Source: Methanoregulaceae archaeon (lineage in GTDB: Archaea > Halobacteriota > Methanomicrobia > Methanomicrobiales > Methanospirillaceae). From it: 32,143 bases of DNA. The DNA is taken from positions 1 to 32,143 of the forward strand of contig JAJFVA010000009.1 in NCBI GenBank assembly GCA_021371995.1, in the 5' to 3' direction. Numbering within the stretch: position 1 is the first letter of the stretch; each line of letters begins with the position of its first letter. Shown here one piece after another: positions 8,444 through 16,512 of this stretch. The notes under the pieces are model-generated. The model was given only the letters and a program-made list of their open reading frames with translations, did not search any database and was not told the origin of the DNA. A program made the translations under genes and the position numbers.

Positions 8444-10105
8444 TTAGTAGTCGCCCATACCGGGCATGCCGCCCATGCCACCCATGCCGCCCATACCTTC
8501 CATGCCGCCGGGGGGTCCCTGGGGTGCTGCGCTCTTGGATGCGGCAATGACATCATCAATACGGAGGATCATCACGGCTGCCTCTGCAGCACTCGAGATA
8601 GCCTGCGTCTTGACACGGAGGGGCTCGACAACCCCGGACTTGAGCATGTCCTCGGCCTTGCCATCAAACACGTTCAGACCAACGGTTTTCTTGCCCTTCT
8701 CGTGGGCTGCACGGAGCTCTACCAGCATGTCGATGGGATCAAGCCCTGCATTCTCGGCAAGGGTCCTTGGGATGATCTCAAGGGCGCTTGCAAATGCCTC
8801 GATGGCGAGCTGTGCACGCCCTCCGACACTTGCTGCGTATTCGCGGAGGCGGAGCGAGAGTTCGATCTCAGGGGATCCGCCGCCTGCAACAAGTTTCTTG
8901 TCCTCAAAGACGACACCGACAACGCGGAGTGCATCCTCAACGGCACGCTCGATCTCGTCCACCACGTGCTCGGTCCCGCCACGGACGATGAGGGAGACGG
9001 CCTTGGGGTTCTTGCACTCGACAACAAAGATCATCTCCTCGCCGGAGACTTTCTTTTCCTCGACAAGCCCCGCAAAACCAAGCTCTTCCTTTGAAATGGC
9101 ATCGATGCTTGAGACAAGGTTCCCGCCGGTTGCCCGGGCGAGTTTCTCCATGTCGCTCTTCTTGACACGCCGTGTTGCAAAGATACCGGCCTTGGCCAGG
9201 TAGTGCTGGGCGATATCGTCGATTCCTTTCTGGCAGAAGAGGACGTTGGCTCCGGATGCCACGACCTTGTCGACAATGTTCTTGATCATCCGCTCCTCTT
9301 CATCGAGGAACGCCTGGAGTTGGTCCGGGCTTGTGATGTTGATCTCTGCATCGACTTCGGTCTTCTTGAACTCGACGGCTGCATTCAGGAGGAGGATCTT
9401 TGCGTTCTTCACCCTCTTTGGCATCGCGGGGTGGACACGCTCCTTGTCGATAAGGACTCCTTCGACAATCTCAGAGTTGTCCACGGATCCGCCGACTTTC
9501 TTCTCCACCTTGATGTTATCCTTGTCAACCGTCCCATCATCGTCAGCAACCATCATGACGGCCTTAACCACGAGGTCACAGAGCTTCTCCTTTGAAGCCT
9601 CCGCACCCTTGCCGGTCATGGCGGTCTCTGCGATCTTCTTCAGCATCGCTGCATCGGTCGGTTTGATGGTGATCGCGATGTTCTTCAGGATCTCCTGTGC
9701 CTTCTCAGCGGCCTGACGGTATCCCTGGGCGATCACGGTCGGGTGCACGTCCTGCTCAAGCAGGTCTTCCGCCCGCTTCAGCAGTTCTCCGGCAATGACG
9801 ACTGCAGTGGTGGTCCCGTCCCCGACTTCATCGTCCTGGGTCTTTGCGATCTCCACCATCATTTTTGCTGCCGGGTGCTCGATGTCCATCTCTTTGAGGA
9901 TTGTCACACCGTCGTTGGTAATTACGACATCGCCGATAGTGTCAACGAGCATCTTGTCCATGCCCTTCGGCCCAAGCGTCGTTCTTACCGCACTTGCAAC
10001 GGCCTTTGCGGCGGTGATATTCATACCCTGTGCATCACGTCCACGGGTGCGTGAACTGCCTTCTTTCAGAATAAGGATTGGTTGTCCTCCAAGCTGCTGT
10101 GCCAT
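8444..10105 (-). CDS. Thermosome subunit (group II chaperonin)
   Basis: This 553-residue group II chaperonin subunit has the ATP-binding motif [16 protein letters not shown], the GDGTT motif in its N-terminal part, and the glycine-methionine repeat tail (GGM repeats over the last 25 residues) typical of thermosomes. It assembles into double-ring ATP-dependent folding chambers in the cytoplasm. It is preceded by a strong TATA element (10146-10154) and a Shine-Dalgarno GTGGTGA six bases before the ATG, consistent with high expression. Methanogens often carry several paralogous subunits. Only one is seen here, so I do not assign alpha or beta. Confidence 0.96.
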
Positions 10106-10145
10106 AGATATTCACCACTTGTAGCGATAAAATTGGTTTGTGGTT

Positions 10146-10154
10146 CTATATAAA
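10146..10154 (-). promoter_or_regulatory. Strong TATA box of the thermosome gene
   Basis: On the minus strand the bases read TTTATATAG, centred about 45 bases before the thermosome ATG and 3 bases past the stop codon of the upstream regulator gene. This predicts a transcript start near 10123 with a short leader containing the GTGGTGA ribosome site. Confidence 0.6.
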
Positions 10155-10156
10155 TA

Positions 10157-11074
10157 TTATGACTTATCGATCATATCGATCAGCTCTTCACCGTCTGCAA
10201 CTGAATGGAGCCGCTCCTCTCCAATCACCAGGGTACTGCCGATCTTTTTCTGCTTATAATAGTCAGTGAGCACGCACATCGCATGGGTCCCGGTGACCTG
10301 CGAGATATTCCCGATGAGTGCAGCGCGCCTGACAACCTTATCGGTCGTGCCATACCCGGCGAGGATGGTATGATCTGAAAATTCGATCATGGCCTGGAAG
10401 GGAGCCCGGTGCATGGTGTGGAGCTTCATGCCGATCCGTTCAAGGAAGCTCATCGGGACGTCTTCTTTTTCCTTCTCCGGTTCGTTCATGAAGTGGGACT
10501 CGTAGGTGATGAGGTCGATCGACCTGACAAGTGCTGCATCAAAGATCTCCTCAATCCGGAGCGCGATGTCGAGCGTGGTACCCATACCGCTCTCATACTT
10601 GCTGATAGCCCTGCGGGAGACACCGAGAAGGGTGCCAAGGTCTCCAAGTGAGAGGTTCCGCTTCTCCCGCTGCTCGCGGAGTACCTCCCCGTTGATGTTC
10701 ACGTAGAGCCCGCCCGGGGAGGCGTACACAAGAGGAGGATTGTTCTCGACAAAGGCATCATAGAGGGTTGAGACACTGACCGCATAGATACCGTACCTGA
10801 CATACACGGCTCCCCGCTCGAGCTCCGCATCACGGGCTCTCTCGCCGATAATCATGGGTGATCCCCGGAGAGAGCGTGCAATATGATCGAGATCCCGGGC
10901 CGTCTCCTCGCTCACGCTGTCGATATGGGAGACCACCTTGATGACAAGAAGGGTTTCCCGCCTCCCTGCAATCAGGTCGAAGCTCCGCGGCCTCATGGAG
11001 AAACGTTCCGTGACCCGGAACCCGGCCATGAGCAGTACCGATACAACCATCTGGAGGAGGCGATCCTGGGACAT
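10157..11074 (-). CDS. Archaeal HTH-type transcriptional regulator (COG1395-like)
   Basis: A 305-residue regulator. Its N-terminal domain (about 1-110) has a restriction-nuclease-like strand order (SFDLIAGRRETLLVIKV) but no obvious catalytic set. A helix-turn-helix of the Cro/XRE type lies at about 131-180 (LREQREKRNLSLGDLGTLLGVSRRAISKYESG). A C-terminal domain of about 120 residues may sense a ligand. This architecture matches a conserved archaeal family of putative regulators with unknown targets. It is divergent from tiaS, with 50 bases between the starts, and lies directly upstream of the thermosome gene on the same strand. A perfect 10-base palindrome in the divergent region is a candidate binding site. 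Confidence 0.82.
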   Translation of the reverse strand: MSQDRLLQMVVSVLLMAGFRVTERFSMRPRSFDLIAGRRETLLVIKVVSHIDSVSEETARDLDHIARSLRGSPMIIGERARDAELERGAVYVRYGIYAVSVSTLYDAFVENNPPLVYASPGGLYVNINGEVLREQREKRNLSLGDLGTLLGVSRRAISKYESGMGTTLDIALRIEEIFDAALVRSIDLITYESHFMNEPEKEKEDVPMSFLERIGMKLHTMHRAPFQAMIEFSDHTILAGYGTTDKVVRRAALIGNISQVTGTHAMCVLTDYYKQKKIGSTLVIGEERLHSVADGEELIDMIDKS

Positions 11075-11104
11075 TTCCGTTACGAATGGATATAGCAGGG
11101 CAGG

Positions 11105-11114
11105 CTATTAATAG
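11105..11114. promoter_or_regulatory. Perfect palindrome CTATTAATAG in divergent promoter region
   Basis: The 10 bases are fully self-complementary and lie 34 bases before the regulator ATG, at TATA-box distance, and 11 bases before tiaS. It may be the regulator's TATA element, an autoregulatory operator, or both. GATATAGC at about 11088-11095 is a better-placed TATA for tiaS. Confidence 0.35.
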
Positions 11115-11124
11115 TAGTGCATAC

Positions 11125-12366
11125 ATGCGAATCGGAATCGACGACACGGATTCGCCGGCCGGGATGTGTACCACCTACCTCGGGGCAGTTCTTGCCGGCC
11201 GGCTTTCTGATTCCGGGATGACCGTGAGGGATGCAATTCTGGTCCGGCTGAATCCCAATGTGATCCACAAGACCCGCGGGAATGCAGCGATCTGCCTTGA
11301 TGTCCTGGGTGATCCGGACACCGCGTTTGGCATGGCATGCGACATCGTTGAGGAGCTGGCCGATTTCTCCTGCGAGGACACAAACCCCGGGGTTGTCGTT
11401 TCCGAAGCAGATCTTCCCGTAGAATTCTACGAAAAAGCGGTCGGGGATTTCTGCGAGACTGACGAGGCAATCGCGCTTCTTGCGAAGGCGGGAGCCCGCT
11501 TTCGGGGATACAGAAACGGGCGGGGACTGATCGGGGCTGCTGCCGCGGTCGCCAGCCGGTTTGAAGATACAACCTCCGAGATTCTTGTGTACCGCAAACC
11601 GGAACGGTGGGGATCCCCACGGACGGTCGATCGTGAAAGCCTCTTTCTGGCAGAACGGGAGACGTATCCCCACACGTGGGATACGGTAGATACAGAAAAC
11701 GATGTCGTTGTCTGTGTCCCCCACACCCCGGACCCGGTCCTCTTTGGTATCCGGGGGGTATCAGAGGAGTGGGTGCTCCGGGCGCGAAGCATGGTTTGTT
11801 CGGAAGAGCCGGAGCGGGAAAGAGTATTTACGACAAATCAGGGGACCGATGCCCACCTGGGAAAAGGATCCATCGGGGCCCTTGAACCCGGAAGATCCTA
11901 CCTGATCAGGGGGACAGTCTCCTCGGTCCCGGTCACCCGGACAGGCGGGCATGTCTCGTTCATGCTGTCAGAAGGCGCTCGTTCTGTCCGGTGCATGGCA
12001 TACGAACCGACAAAAGGATTCAGGGATATCATACGTATGCTCCGTCCCGGGGACGAGCTGGTGGTTGCCGGGAGTTACAAGGAAGGGAGCATAAATCTCG
12101 AAAAAATCAGGGTGATATCGGTCATATCCCTGTCCGAACGAAAGGCACCGTTCTGCGTTTCGTGCCAGAAGCGAATGACAAGTGCAGGGACGGCCAAGGG
12201 GTATAAATGCCGGATCTGCGGTGCACGTGAACAGGAACCGGATCTCGTGCGCCTCCCCCGGAATCTGAAACCCGGCTGGTACGAGGTTCCGCCTTCTGCC
12301 CGGCGTCATCTGGCAAAGCCGCTCTGCAGGGGACAGCCGGATCTGGAAAAATACGGGATAGCGTGA
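11125..12366 (+). CDS. tiaS: tRNA(Ile2) 2-agmatinylcytidine synthetase TiaS
   Basis: The 413-residue protein starts MRIGIDDTDSPAGMC, the TiaS hallmark, and continues with an N-terminal catalytic half (RGNAAICLDVLG), an OB-fold-like region (about 255-335) and a C-terminal zinc ribbon (C344/C347 and C362/C365). TiaS attaches agmatine to C34 of the AUA-reading tRNA(Ile), so that it reads AUA and not AUG. It is essential in archaea. I start it at 11125 because the family begins exactly with MRIGIDDTD; upstream in-frame codons lack similarity. A TATA-like GATATAGC about 32 bases upstream suggests a leaderless transcript. The stop codon directly abuts that of the convergent gene. Confidence 0.93.
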   Translation: MRIGIDDTDSPAGMCTTYLGAVLAGRLSDSGMTVRDAILVRLNPNVIHKTRGNAAICLDVLGDPDTAFGMACDIVEELADFSCEDTNPGVVVSEADLPVEFYEKAVGDFCETDEAIALLAKAGARFRGYRNGRGLIGAAAAVASRFEDTTSEILVYRKPERWGSPRTVDRESLFLAERETYPHTWDTVDTENDVVVCVPHTPDPVLFGIRGVSEEWVLRARSMVCSEEPERERVFTTNQGTDAHLGKGSIGALEPGRSYLIRGTVSSVPVTRTGGHVSFMLSEGARSVRCMAYEPTKGFRDIIRMLRPGDELVVAGSYKEGSINLEKIRVISVISLSERKAPFCVSCQKRMTSAGTAKGYKCRICGAREQEPDLVRLPRNLKPGWYEVPPSARRHLAKPLCRGQPDLEKYGIA

Positions 12367-15300
12367 TCAGCAGGACGGTTCCTCTCCGGGCGTATCCTTC
12401 TCTACGATCATGATCTCTTCAGGGGAGAGGCGATAGAGCTCATAGACTATCCCGTCAATCCGGCGGTCCAGTTCCATGATCTGCTGCCGGTATAGTGTCT
12501 TTTTTCGGATATCGTTCGTTTCGGCAGATCTCTTCCGGATCAGGAGGACCCGCCCCACCAGGGCTTCAAGCGAATCGTGCCTGGCTGATTCGGCACGGTC
12601 ATCGAAGTCAGGGACAAAGACCGGGATATGTTCGAAGAGAGGGCCGTATAATCTCCTGTAATCCCCCCGGAATGGCGGAACCGTATTCCTGATGACGAAC
12701 CAGATGAGCCGTGAGTTCAGGATCGAAAGCAGGTAGGGGGATGATGACCCGATGATCCGGCAGGTATCAGGGCAATAGTGGCCGGACACATCCAGGGTAA
12801 ATCTTCTTTCTCTCGCAATTCCCGGGAATAAAATTTTAGGCTTTTCAAACAGGTCGGCAGAATTATAGGTATTTGGATGTTCGTACCAGTGAGACGCATC
12901 TGACTTTTTTTGTATACCTTCCTCTCCTTTAACATCCCTTTTCCCCTGAACAGGTTCCTTTTTATGGCGCATGAGATACCGGAATACTGCGGGATACTTT
13001 TTCATGTCAGTTCCCAGCGGAACCATGATGAGGTGACTGCCACCAGTATCAGGAGGCAGGTATCGTTGCAGGCCTTTGCAGGAAAGAAAAGGCCTGATGA
13101 TCGCGGCTGATTCCGGATCTTCCTCAATGAGCCGCTTTTTTGTCTCCTCATCGATTATAAGAGCAGAACAATTCCCGATCCTTATTCCCGGACACAGTGC
13201 GCCCATAACATACTCCCCAAGCGGGGTTCCGGCCTTCTGCACCTTGCTGACAAGATCCTGCACCCTTGTATCCGAAAGGATCCATCTCCCCTCCCCAAGC
13301 CGGCTCATGGGGAGTGTATACCGGTGCGTTTCCAGATAGCCTTCAGCGGTCCCTGGTTCCGGAATCTCTCCCTGCACCACGGAAAGAGAGGGTCCCGGCG
13401 CCTCTTTTACCGCCCTGATACTGCAGGATTGCAGGAGACCATCCCACCCTCCTCCCCTATTGCCGGTGTCGATGATCTCCCGTATTCCGAATCCTCGAAG
13501 GAAACTCCGGAGCTTCGTTCCATTGTCCGCCCGCAGCCACGCATCCGGGAGTATGGCGGAGAACTGCCCTCCCGGCCTGAGAAGCATGATTCCTTTCTCC
13601 ACAAAGCAGTGATACAGGTCTGCCGTGCCCGGGAAGATCCTGTACCGCTTCTCAAGGTATTCCTTCTCCCCTTTGAGCGATTCCCTGCGAAAATGGGGGG
13701 GATGACCGGTGACCATGTCAAATCCTCCCGATTTCATGATACCCGGGAATGCTGCTTCCCAGTCAAACACATGGAGCCGTTCCCATGAACGGGGATCGAT
13801 CAGTGATGCATCAGGGTCATTAAAAATATCGGGGCCGACAAGCGAATTCCCGCACCGGATATTCCCGGAGAGATCCGGGAGCGGGAGTCCGCCATGATCC
13901 ATATCTTCCATTAGTTTTACGAGGAGGAGGAACCTTGTTGTCCCAACCGCTCTCCTGTCGATATCCACCCCGAAGATCGTGGCAAGCAGGATCCTCTTTC
14001 TTTCTCCTGCCGTGAGTCTCCAGGTGATCTCTTCCCGTGATGAATTCCCCCCGCGTTCCGTGCAACGGATGATGGGAAGAGGGGGGGCCGTATCCCCCTC
14101 TTTTCCAGGTCCCGGCAAAAAACCCAGGGTGTTGTCCAGAGTAAAGTTCGCGCGCCCTATGACGGGTACGAGGTTTTCAGTATACCATCTGAGATGCCAG
14201 TCGAGGAGGAATTCGTACGCCATGACCAGGAACAGGCCGGATCCGCAGGCAGGATCAAGCACACGGAGGCCTGCGATATCCCGCGGTGTCTTTCCCTTCA
14301 CGAGCTCAAAAAGGGTCTCTCTCACGATATATGCTGCAATCTCACGCGGAGTGCCGGAAGGGCCCCCGGCCGCCCTTATTTCGGGACGCTCCTCGACAAA
14401 GGCCTGGTGCCCGGTGGTGAGCCGGATCACCTTCCCGAGGAACGGAGAAAAGACCTCCGCGAGTATCTGAGCGGGGATCACGGAAAACTCGTACGGGCTT
14501 TCCGGGGGGGAGATCCGGGTGATGATCTTTTTTATCGATTCATCATCGACAGAAAGGGTGAGCGTCAGATCGTCAGAGGGTTCGTCTGTGCCCGTTCCTT
14601 CCGAAAAACGGAAGAGCCCTCCACCGTATTCATCCTCAGCGTACCTGAAAAGCCCGCAGAGCCTGCCATAGGCCGACCCCCCTTCGATGACTCTCCGGAG
14701 GATTCCGTACTGCCCGATCCCCCTGTCTTCCGCGATACGGAGAAAGAGGATGCGGCTGAGAAGCTGCTGCACCGCCTCGTTGATTGCCCCCGCAGAAAGC
14801 CCGTGGTTGCGGAGCGCAATCCTTTTTGCGAGCAGGAGCCGCCACTCTTCGATGTCACCCAAAAGCAGTTGTCTGATGCCGGCTGCCCCTTTTTCAACCC
14901 CCCTCTCTTTGAGGAAAAGACCTGGTGATCCCCCAAGAACACACTCCCGGGAGATCACTGCCGCGATCCGGTCCCACTTTTCTGCGTACTGGTCAACCGC
15001 AACCCTGGCAATCCGCGCTATGGCCGCATCGTCCCCGCACTGCACCGGGATCGTGGCATCATAGATCGCTGATTCCCCAAAATTCGTGAGGATGGCAAGT
15101 TTCAGCCCGGCATTCCATGCATACCTGCGGAGATCGAGCAGCCCGCCGGCAGTCCCGGGATCTGCAGCCGAAGGATTCCCGATCATGATTGCTATCACCC
15201 CGCCGGATTGGGTGCAGAGAACATAATCGACAGACTTTATCCGGCCGTTACTGCGGAAAGGGATATCCCGGCTGACCCCGGTGCGTTGCTTCCTGCACTC

Positions 15301-15522
15301 CCCTGGTTGTTCCGGCCCCCAGCCAATGTTTTCCAGGAACAGATCGATGAATTCCCTGCAGCTGTCCCGGCTGACCGTATCCCTCTCTGCAGCGTGCGGG
15401 AGGATAGCCCGGTACCGCTCGATAAGTCCGGTGATTGATGGAGGTGCTGGCATTGCAGGTATGATAGGGTCTGACCTGCGTAACCGAAAATATTCCTTTC
15501 CCGCACCTTCACCAGCAGGCAT
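12367..15522 (-). CDS. Type IIG restriction-modification-like protein with altered nuclease and methylase motifs
   Basis: A 1,051-residue protein with the layout of fused type IIG enzymes: an N-terminal nuclease-like region (about 1-200), a helical linker (about 200-400), a gamma-type N6-adenine methylase core (about 410-720) and a C-terminal TaqI-like specificity region (about 740-1000). The SAM motif is intact (D423-PACGSG-LF). The catalytic NPPY motif, however, reads H607-P-P-H610-F in FDMVTGHPPHF. In the nuclease region, D99 (SVDYVL) is followed by IAIMIGN (114-116 = I-G-N) where E-x-K is expected. Both activities are probably lost although the frame is open throughout. It could be a recently decayed enzyme or a DNA-binding protein with a new role. 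No other defence gene is adjacent. A TATA element shared with dys supports the start at 15522; an alternative ATG is at 15453. Confidence 0.85.
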   Translation of the reverse strand: MPAGEGAGKEYFRLRRSDPIIPAMPAPPSITGLIERYRAILPHAAERDTVSRDSCREFIDLFLENIGWGPEQPGECRKQRTGVSRDIPFRSNGRIKSVDYVLCTQSGGVIAIMIGNPSAADPGTAGGLLDLRRYAWNAGLKLAILTNFGESAIYDATIPVQCGDDAAIARIARVAVDQYAEKWDRIAAVISRECVLGGSPGLFLKERGVEKGAAGIRQLLLGDIEEWRLLLAKRIALRNHGLSAGAINEAVQQLLSRILFLRIAEDRGIGQYGILRRVIEGGSAYGRLCGLFRYAEDEYGGGLFRFSEGTGTDEPSDDLTLTLSVDDESIKKIITRISPPESPYEFSVIPAQILAEVFSPFLGKVIRLTTGHQAFVEERPEIRAAGGPSGTPREIAAYIVRETLFELVKGKTPRDIAGLRVLDPACGSGLFLVMAYEFLLDWHLRWYTENLVPVIGRANFTLDNTLGFLPGPGKEGDTAPPLPIIRCTERGGNSSREEITWRLTAGERKRILLATIFGVDIDRRAVGTTRFLLLVKLMEDMDHGGLPLPDLSGNIRCGNSLVGPDIFNDPDASLIDPRSWERLHVFDWEAAFPGIMKSGGFDMVTGHPPHFRRESLKGEKEYLEKRYRIFPGTADLYHCFVEKGIMLLRPGGQFSAILPDAWLRADNGTKLRSFLRGFGIREIIDTGNRGGGWDGLLQSCSIRAVKEAPGPSLSVVQGEIPEPGTAEGYLETHRYTLPMSRLGEGRWILSDTRVQDLVSKVQKAGTPLGEYVMGALCPGIRIGNCSALIIDEETKKRLIEEDPESAAIIRPFLSCKGLQRYLPPDTGGSHLIMVPLGTDMKKYPAVFRYLMRHKKEPVQGKRDVKGEEGIQKKSDASHWYEHPNTYNSADLFEKPKILFPGIARERRFTLDVSGHYCPDTCRIIGSSSPYLLSILNSRLIWFVIRNTVPPFRGDYRRLYGPLFEHIPVFVPDFDDRAESARHDSLEALVGRVLLIRKRSAETNDIRKKTLYRQQIMELDRRIDGIVYELYRLSPEEIMIVEKDTPGEEPSC

Positions 15523-15550
15523 CCTGCCGGAAAGAACCCTGAGGACGCAC

Positions 15551-15556
15551 TTATAA
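15551..15556. promoter_or_regulatory. Shared bidirectional TATA element between dys and the IIG-like gene
   Basis: The palindromic TTATAA lies about 30 bases from the dys ATG on one side and about 31 from the restriction-modification-like ATG on the other. Both are standard TATA distances for leaderless archaeal transcripts, and no other AT-rich box is equally placed in this 60-base gap. Confidence 0.45.
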
Positions 15557-15582
15557 CGTTTCAGCGAACTTAATTCTCTAGC

Positions 15583-16512
15583 ATGGAATGCGGGGATCCC
15601 GTAGAGCAGGTGTCATTACGGCCCGGTATGAGCGTGGACGAGCTGATGCGCCAGCTCGCACGGGCCGGAGCGTATAACGGGGGTGCGCTTGCCCGGGCTG
15701 CCGATATCTACGAACGGATGCTTACCGACAGGAATGCCGTGAAATTTTTCGGGCTCGCGGGAGCAATGGTCCCAGCGGGGATGGGAGGGATCGTGAGCGA
15801 TCTTCTATCACGCGGACATATCGATGTCCTTGTCAGCACCGGGGCCAATCTCACCCATGATATCATTGAAGCGCTGGGGTGCCGGCATTACCACGGCTCC
15901 GCATGCTGCTCTGATGTCGAGCTCAGGCAGGATGAGATCAACCGCATTTACGATGTGTACCTCCCGAACGATGCGTTTATTACGTTCGAGGGTTTTATCC
16001 AGGACGCTCTGGCTTCGCTCGATCCCGGGCGGAGCTATCCCATCACCGGGCTGATGGCGATGCTCGGGCAGCGGCTCGACCACGGGATCCTGTCAACGGC
16101 AGCGGGCAAAGGTGTGCCGGTATACTGTCCTGCTGTGGCCGATTCGATGATCGGGCTCCAGTGCTGGCTTTTCTCCCAGTCAGGAAAAATCTCGGTGGAC
16201 GCATTTTCTGATATGAAAGACCTGATCGATCTCTGTTTTACCGCCAAAAAGGCCGGAGCGCTGCTTATCGGGGGCGGTGTGCCGAAGAACTTTATCCTCC
16301 AGAGCATGCTGATGACCCCGCAGGGATTCAGCTATGCCGTCCAGCTGACGGGGGACCGGCCGGACCTCGGCGGGCTTTCCGGAGCAACCCTCGATGAAGC
16401 ACGGTCGTGGGGTAAAATTACCGGGGATGCAGCGGCGGTGACCGTCTATGGCGACGCAACGATCACCCTCCCGATGCTTGTCGCGGCAGTGCTGGAGCGG
16501 ATCGCGCGATGA
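15583..16512 (+). CDS. dys: Deoxyhypusine synthase
   Basis: The 309-residue protein matches deoxyhypusine synthase: FFGLAGAMVPAGM, STGANLTHDIIEALGC, the RLDHGILSTA stretch, and the catalytic lysine K278 in RSWGKI followed by VYGDATITLPMLVAAVLE. It transfers the butylamine part of spermidine to one lysine of aIF5A, using NAD, as the first step of hypusine formation. Archaeal homologues can act on other polyamines such as agmatine, so the donor is not certain. It overlaps pyrF by 4 bases (ATGA) and should be co-transcribed with it. The start lies 30 bases after TTATAA, implying a leaderless message. Confidence 0.93.
   Translation: MECGDPVEQVSLRPGMSVDELMRQLARAGAYNGGALARAADIYERMLTDRNAVKFFGLAGAMVPAGMGGIVSDLLSRGHIDVLVSTGANLTHDIIEALGCRHYHGSACCSDVELRQDEINRIYDVYLPNDAFITFEGFIQDALASLDPGRSYPITGLMAMLGQRLDHGILSTAAGKGVPVYCPAVADSMIGLQCWLFSQSGKISVDAFSDMKDLIDLCFTAKKAGALLIGGGVPKNFILQSMLMTPQGFSYAVQLTGDRPDLGGLSGATLDEARSWGKITGDAAAVTVYGDATITLPMLVAAVLERIAR

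Follow-up and report, generated by a model that had tools for sequence, protein, structure and literature searches.

Is an unbroken restriction-enzyme gene that lacks both catalytic sites decaying, or is it kept for another function? The question is raised by a minus-strand frame (12367-15522) in the 32,143-nucleotide stretch of DNA analysed here (the window), from a Methanoregulaceae archaeon whose genome encodes McrA and therefore belongs to a methanogen. As an earlier note made from the sequence alone had claimed, the frame is open for 1,051 codons without stop or break. Its product matches the Pfam profiles Eco57I (E = 2.2e-27) and TaqI_C (E = 8e-08) and is matched to type IIG by PADLOC (E = 3e-113). 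The start codons of orthologues align with Met24 of the frame, which makes 15453 the probable start, rather than 15522, and gives a product of 1,028 amino acids (Table 1). The gene is rather likely to be a domesticated type IIG restriction-modification (RM) pseudoenzyme, which would bind DNA at a fixed site, would bind AdoMet and would act by occupancy without cutting or methylating.

Table 1. Coordinates of the gene, its domains and motifs, and its flanks within the window.
Feature	Coordinates	Strand	Basis or remarks
Catalytically dead type IIG (Eco57I-like) RM homologue	12367..15453	-	1,028 aa from Met24; longer frame from 15522; profile matches, conserved orthologue Met
Nuclease-like N-terminal domain (residues 27-215)	14878..15444	-	D99 kept, E113 to M, K115 to G; alignment with active relatives; predicted fold
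Lost E-x-K site, M113-I-G115	15178..15186	-	E113 or K115 kept in 0/7 orthologues
Helical connector domain (216-380)	14383..14877	-	Predicted structure
Pseudo-methyltransferase domain (381-690)	13453..14382	-	Pfam Eco57I; Foldseek CamA, M.BseCI, BpuSI, MmeI, BrxX
AdoMet motif I DPACGSG (423-429), intact	14236..14256	-	Sequence, alignment, column retention
Motif II D-I-D (520-522), intact	13957..13965	-	Alignment
Motif III C-G-N (557-559), intact	13846..13854	-	Alignment
Motif IV HPPH (607-610), NPPY replaced	13693..13704	-	Sequence, alignment
Target-recognition domain (691-975), TaqI_C-like, net positive	12598..13452	-	Tracks methyltransferase domain, no hypervariation; Pfam, identity and charge comparison
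Conserved C-terminal helices (976-1051)	12370..12597	-	Alignment, predicted structure
tiaS, convergent flank of slot	11086..12366	+	Neighbour comparison
dys-like deoxyhypusine synthase, divergent flank of slot	15583..16512	+	Neighbour comparison
Intergenic region shared with divergent dys; two blocks, CGAAAA-AT and ACGCA-TTATAA, conserved as possible promoter elements	15454..15582	.	7 orthologous loci aligned

The architecture is that of the type IIG enzymes (Eco57I family; BpuSI, MmeI, TspGWI), in which nuclease-like, helical, m6A-methyltransferase-like and target-recognition domains form a single chain. The AlphaFold2 model (mean pLDDT 80.9) comprises a nuclease-like N-terminus, a helical connector, a methyltransferase fold, a recognition domain and C-terminal helices, and the best PDB matches found by Foldseek are CamA, M.BseCI, BpuSI, BrxX and MmeI. 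The nearest active relatives keep EAKKP and NPPY; unlike type IIG enzymes, the orthologue group of the window protein has lost both E-x-K and NPPY. The orphan m6A methyltransferases CamA and DnmA resemble it in being stand-alone and chromosomal, and CamA is the best match in both fold and sequence, but those enzymes are active whereas the window protein has no intact motif IV. To PglX/BrxX of BREX there is only distant similarity of fold and sequence: the window protein scores 50.9 bits against a cut-off of 900, and its gene neighbours are tiaS and dys.

The replacement of NPPY by HPPH at residues 607-610 and the intact AdoMet motif DPACGSG at 423-429, both reported in the earlier note, are borne out by alignment, so that motif IV departs from the (N/D)PP(Y/F/W) form of type IIG enzymes while their AdoMet motif I is present. 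The note was also right that the nuclease site is lost, but its placement at I-G-N (114-116) was off by one: the motif of active relatives reads D-Y-S-F...F-V/C-E-A-K-K-P, and alignment with them puts the E-x-K column at M113-I114-G115, with E113 and K115 gone and D99 kept, so that the PD-(D/E)xK residues of a type IIG enzyme are incomplete. Across genus g1, to which the window's species belongs, the losses are conserved but the replacement letters are not. None of the seven orthologues covering the nuclease site keeps E113 or K115 (the site reads IMI, IMV or IKL), and none of those covering motif IV keeps NPPY (HPPH, HLPG, HLPR, SFPA, EPPH), whereas the catalytic motifs are kept in 25/25 of the comparison relatives outside the dead group. 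Retention was also computed over 103 methyltransferase columns that are invariant in active relatives, for 37 dead proteins (g1, class A and class B). The comparable columns are retained at 55.8% on average and the AdoMet-motif columns at 94.5%, a value reached in 0/100,000 permutations; outside g1 the AdoMet motif is changed in some of the dead copies, to DMACGAG or DPACRTG for example. Tyr610 is kept in 0/37, and Asn607 is gone from all g1 and class A members. Proteins proposed as intermediates that had lost the nuclease and still methylated were rejected, as they align as intact, with CEAKKP.

An orthologue is present in seven of the 12 g1 genomes (the window's species and six others), adjoining tiaS, dys or both in a shared arrangement, on the opposite strand to these genes; most genomes compared are draft or metagenome assemblies and incomplete, and G008 and G009 each contain two allele-like versions, probably from strain mixtures. 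Where the flanking genes are present, their identity to those of the window's species is higher in carriers than in non-carriers (tiaS 74-82% versus 65-68%, dys 85-91% versus 76-83%), which is consistent with one acquisition. Conservation of the two intergenic blocks in the seven loci, one of them TATA-like, suggests that the gene is expressed. In G002, G004, G007 and G010 the gene is absent and tiaS and dys are directly adjacent; G007 has an intact type IIG gene (EAKKP, NPPY; 44% identity) elsewhere in its genome. A broken relic of the dead gene, with a 250-aa frame, adjoins tiaS in G077 (C1:584382-584996), and the gene can thus be lost. The relic and the absence from several close species indicate that the dead gene is not essential.

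Dead relatives extend beyond g1. In genus g12 (39 species), intact versions of about 800 amino acids occur in 24 species and two more are split by contig ends (26/39), and in genus g8 such versions occur in 5/8 species; in both genera the nuclease domain is deleted and motif IV reads APPP, SPPP, APPA, NLPD, NPPE, NPPD, CPPE and similar. On g12 contigs with both flanks, the dead gene is always enclosed by tiaS and dys and oriented as in the window. The tiaS-dys interval of g12 is a variable island, often enlarged, in which genes for MFS transporters or PAS histidine kinases accompany the dead gene (L057, L064, L103-L115). The g8 copies lie outside the slot, and as tiaS and dys adjoin each other without the gene in close species, the functional link to tiaS or dys suggested earlier finds no support. 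Active enzymes occupy the same place in other methanogens: an intact type IIG gene lies in the slot of G055, the slot gene of G056 is split over two contigs with its nuclease half intact, and G053 and G074 have an intact gene on the dys contig. Seventeen further homologues without motif IV, with less certain alignments, were found in nine genera (g2, g3, g4, g6, g11, g13, g15, g16 and g17). Very diverged dead type IIG-like proteins recur at two loci (L065, L196-L206, L208, L071, L072), one with GDSL/HAD neighbours in g13 and g16 and the other with ribD_C/CitMHS/P-type ATPase neighbours in g11 and g17 (partly g15 and g8); a histidine kinase bearing a KaiB domain at its N-terminus adjoins the dead homologue of G084 (L065:6682-8601).

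In a maximum-likelihood tree built without the motif IV columns, all dead proteins form one clade (98/98) whose sister is six active type IIG enzymes of g8 and g12. Because the dead stems are long, trees were repeated with single dead groups; g1 and class A were each sister to the same active clade, and class B fell inside it. One type IIG lineage is therefore the likely source of the dead proteins as far as their sequences tell, and the trees are compatible with one to three losses of activity. A viral origin was rejected, since the identity of viral relatives does not exceed about 40% and NPPY is present in those whose sequences extend over the motif.

The recognition domain differs in its evolution from that of active enzymes. 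Identity in the recognition and methyltransferase domains is 0.38 versus 0.66 in active type IIG pairs, and 0.59 versus 0.66 in dead g1 pairs, 0.55 versus 0.64 in class A and 0.62 versus 0.67 in class B. A recognition-domain identity of 0.59 at a methyltransferase identity of 0.66 implies that specificity drift has stopped in g1; the recognition domain of the dead proteins appears to have stopped DIVERSIFYING, and the hypervariation typical of type IIG enzymes is not found there. It keeps its net positive charge; the mean charge of the nuclease domain is +2.6 in active and -4.4 in g1 dead proteins. A conserved, positive recognition domain would fit a protein that recognises a single fixed DNA site. 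Several active type IIG genes are followed downstream by one to five detached C-terminal fragments that share about 100-200 bp with the 3′ end of the gene at 80-93% nucleotide identity (L209, G074:C109, 2134-7014 near the gene at 9496-12504; L210, 1331-1594; L211, 5049-7348; L212, 4178-4387). These look like silent specificity-switching cassettes for recombination; the genome of the window yielded no such fragment.

The conserved recognition domain, together with the type IIG ancestry and the variability of the slot in g12, would also suit a maintained defence protein without catalysis of its own, which would identify foreign DNA from its sequence and stop its replication or transcription, or recruit another nuclease. 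This is unlikely, however, as neither a constant partner gene nor an adjoining nuclease was found among the neighbours in g1, g12 or other genera, the recognition domain has not diversified, and host sites would be unprotected by methylation.

Less likely still is that the dead protein serves as an antidote or modulator that antagonises or scaffolds an active type IIG enzyme or methyltransferase, in the manner of METTL14 or DRM3. These pseudo-methyltransferases likewise keep the fold without catalysis and are under selection, the mutated methyltransferase paralogue DRM3 is required in Arabidopsis (PMC2965745), and dead and active copies occur together in some g12 and g8 genomes. METTL14 and DRM3 are eukaryotic, however, and each has an active paralogue, whereas the window's genome (G000) has no other member of the dead gene's family; the sole other Eco57I-family protein there is a distant methyltransferase of 620 amino acids with NPPW intact, adjoining a 353-aa protein with DPPF in what is probably an active methyltransferase locus (L124, G000:C6, about 64 kb). 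An antidote sharing the specificity of a resident active enzyme was rejected, the likeness of dead and active recognition domains being 0.22 within genomes and 0.21 between them.

Equally doubtful is that the protein is still an enzyme whose altered motif IV serves a new substrate or chemistry. The AdoMet pocket signature is kept, and the motif IV Asn is present in 13/15 of class B, the inactivity of which thus rests on the lost aromatic residue. A new active site would require conservation, however, and the motif IV letters vary among orthologues; moreover, single substitutions of N or Y inactivate relatives. The N473A mutation of TspGWI (NPPY to APPY) abolishes methylation and almost wholly abolishes cleavage (PMC3968444), which supports the inactivity of the dead proteins, and DnmA Y465A is inactive and still binds DNA (PMC9973331).

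Selection bears most directly on whether the gene is decaying. By the Nei-Gojobori method with codon bootstrap intervals, dN/dS is 0.33 (0.26-0.42) for G001-G003, 0.30 (0.24-0.37) for the window and G008, and 0.315 (0.26-0.37) for the window and G009, and it is below 1 in every domain tested, the nuclease-like domain included. Active relatives mostly have values of 0.13-0.17 (one pair 0.31); constraint on the dead gene is weaker than in most of them, with dN/dS about twice theirs, but it is real. At synonymous sites the gene has diverged about as much as the flanking tiaS and dys (dS 0.67 versus 0.70 for dys with G008, 1.12 versus 1.01 with G009), which indicates vertical inheritance. In 800 simulated trials the frame was never open after 300 neutral substitutions. 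A decaying pseudogene would have dN/dS near 1 and a broken frame; here dN/dS is 0.30-0.33 and frames are open, and the lost catalytic residues, kept fold and purifying selection across species are those of a maintained pseudoenzyme. Recent inactivation followed by neutral decay that has yet to break the frame is very improbable: both catalytic sites are gone, dN/dS exceeds that of most active relatives, presence is patchy and one relic is broken, but intact dead orthologues persist in species with dS up to about 1.1, the upper bounds of dN/dS are 0.37-0.42, the AdoMet columns stay while the catalytic residues go and dead versions occur in several genera, and for the whole group decay is contradicted by dN/dS as well as by the divergence spanned. 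The gene is not a lone variant under relaxed selection, the outcome set beforehand as counting against domestication, as seven species carry it with dN/dS of about 0.3. Of the alternatives posed in the earlier note, domestication is strongly supported over recent decay by the shared locus in seven species, by dN/dS and by the dead relatives in other genera; its link to tiaS and dys is not.

Sequence comparison traces the dead proteins to an ordinary type IIG lineage that is still intact between tiaS and dys in some related methanogens; nuclease and methyltransferase residues were lost while frames stayed open, inherited vertically and under purifying selection. The recognition and C-terminal domains would bind a fixed DNA sequence, and AdoMet would still bind as a structural or sensing ligand, properties to which the conserved recognition domain and the retained motifs point. 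The protein would then act by occupancy, as a transcription regulator, a roadblock or a nucleoid-associated protein.

Restriction enzymes usually come and go as defence genes, and retained orphan methyltransferases are already known. The literature searched contains no restriction-enzyme lineage retained after the loss of both cutting and methylation, and the text of an archaeal RM survey makes no mention of 'inactive', 'NPPY' or 'pseudogene'. In methanogens, homology-based surveys will record the dead genes as RM systems or as m6A methyltransferases, and they are probably neither. It may tentatively be proposed that they form a new archaeal DNA-binding family, derived from doubly inactivated type IIG enzymes, near-standard in several methanogen genera and serving as fixed-site, AdoMet-responsive regulators or chromosome organisers. 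As judged from sequence, a restriction enzyme seems to have been given a new role in methanogens, probably that of a DNA-binding protein; if confirmed, this would be a route for defence genes to become DNA-binding proteins of the host.
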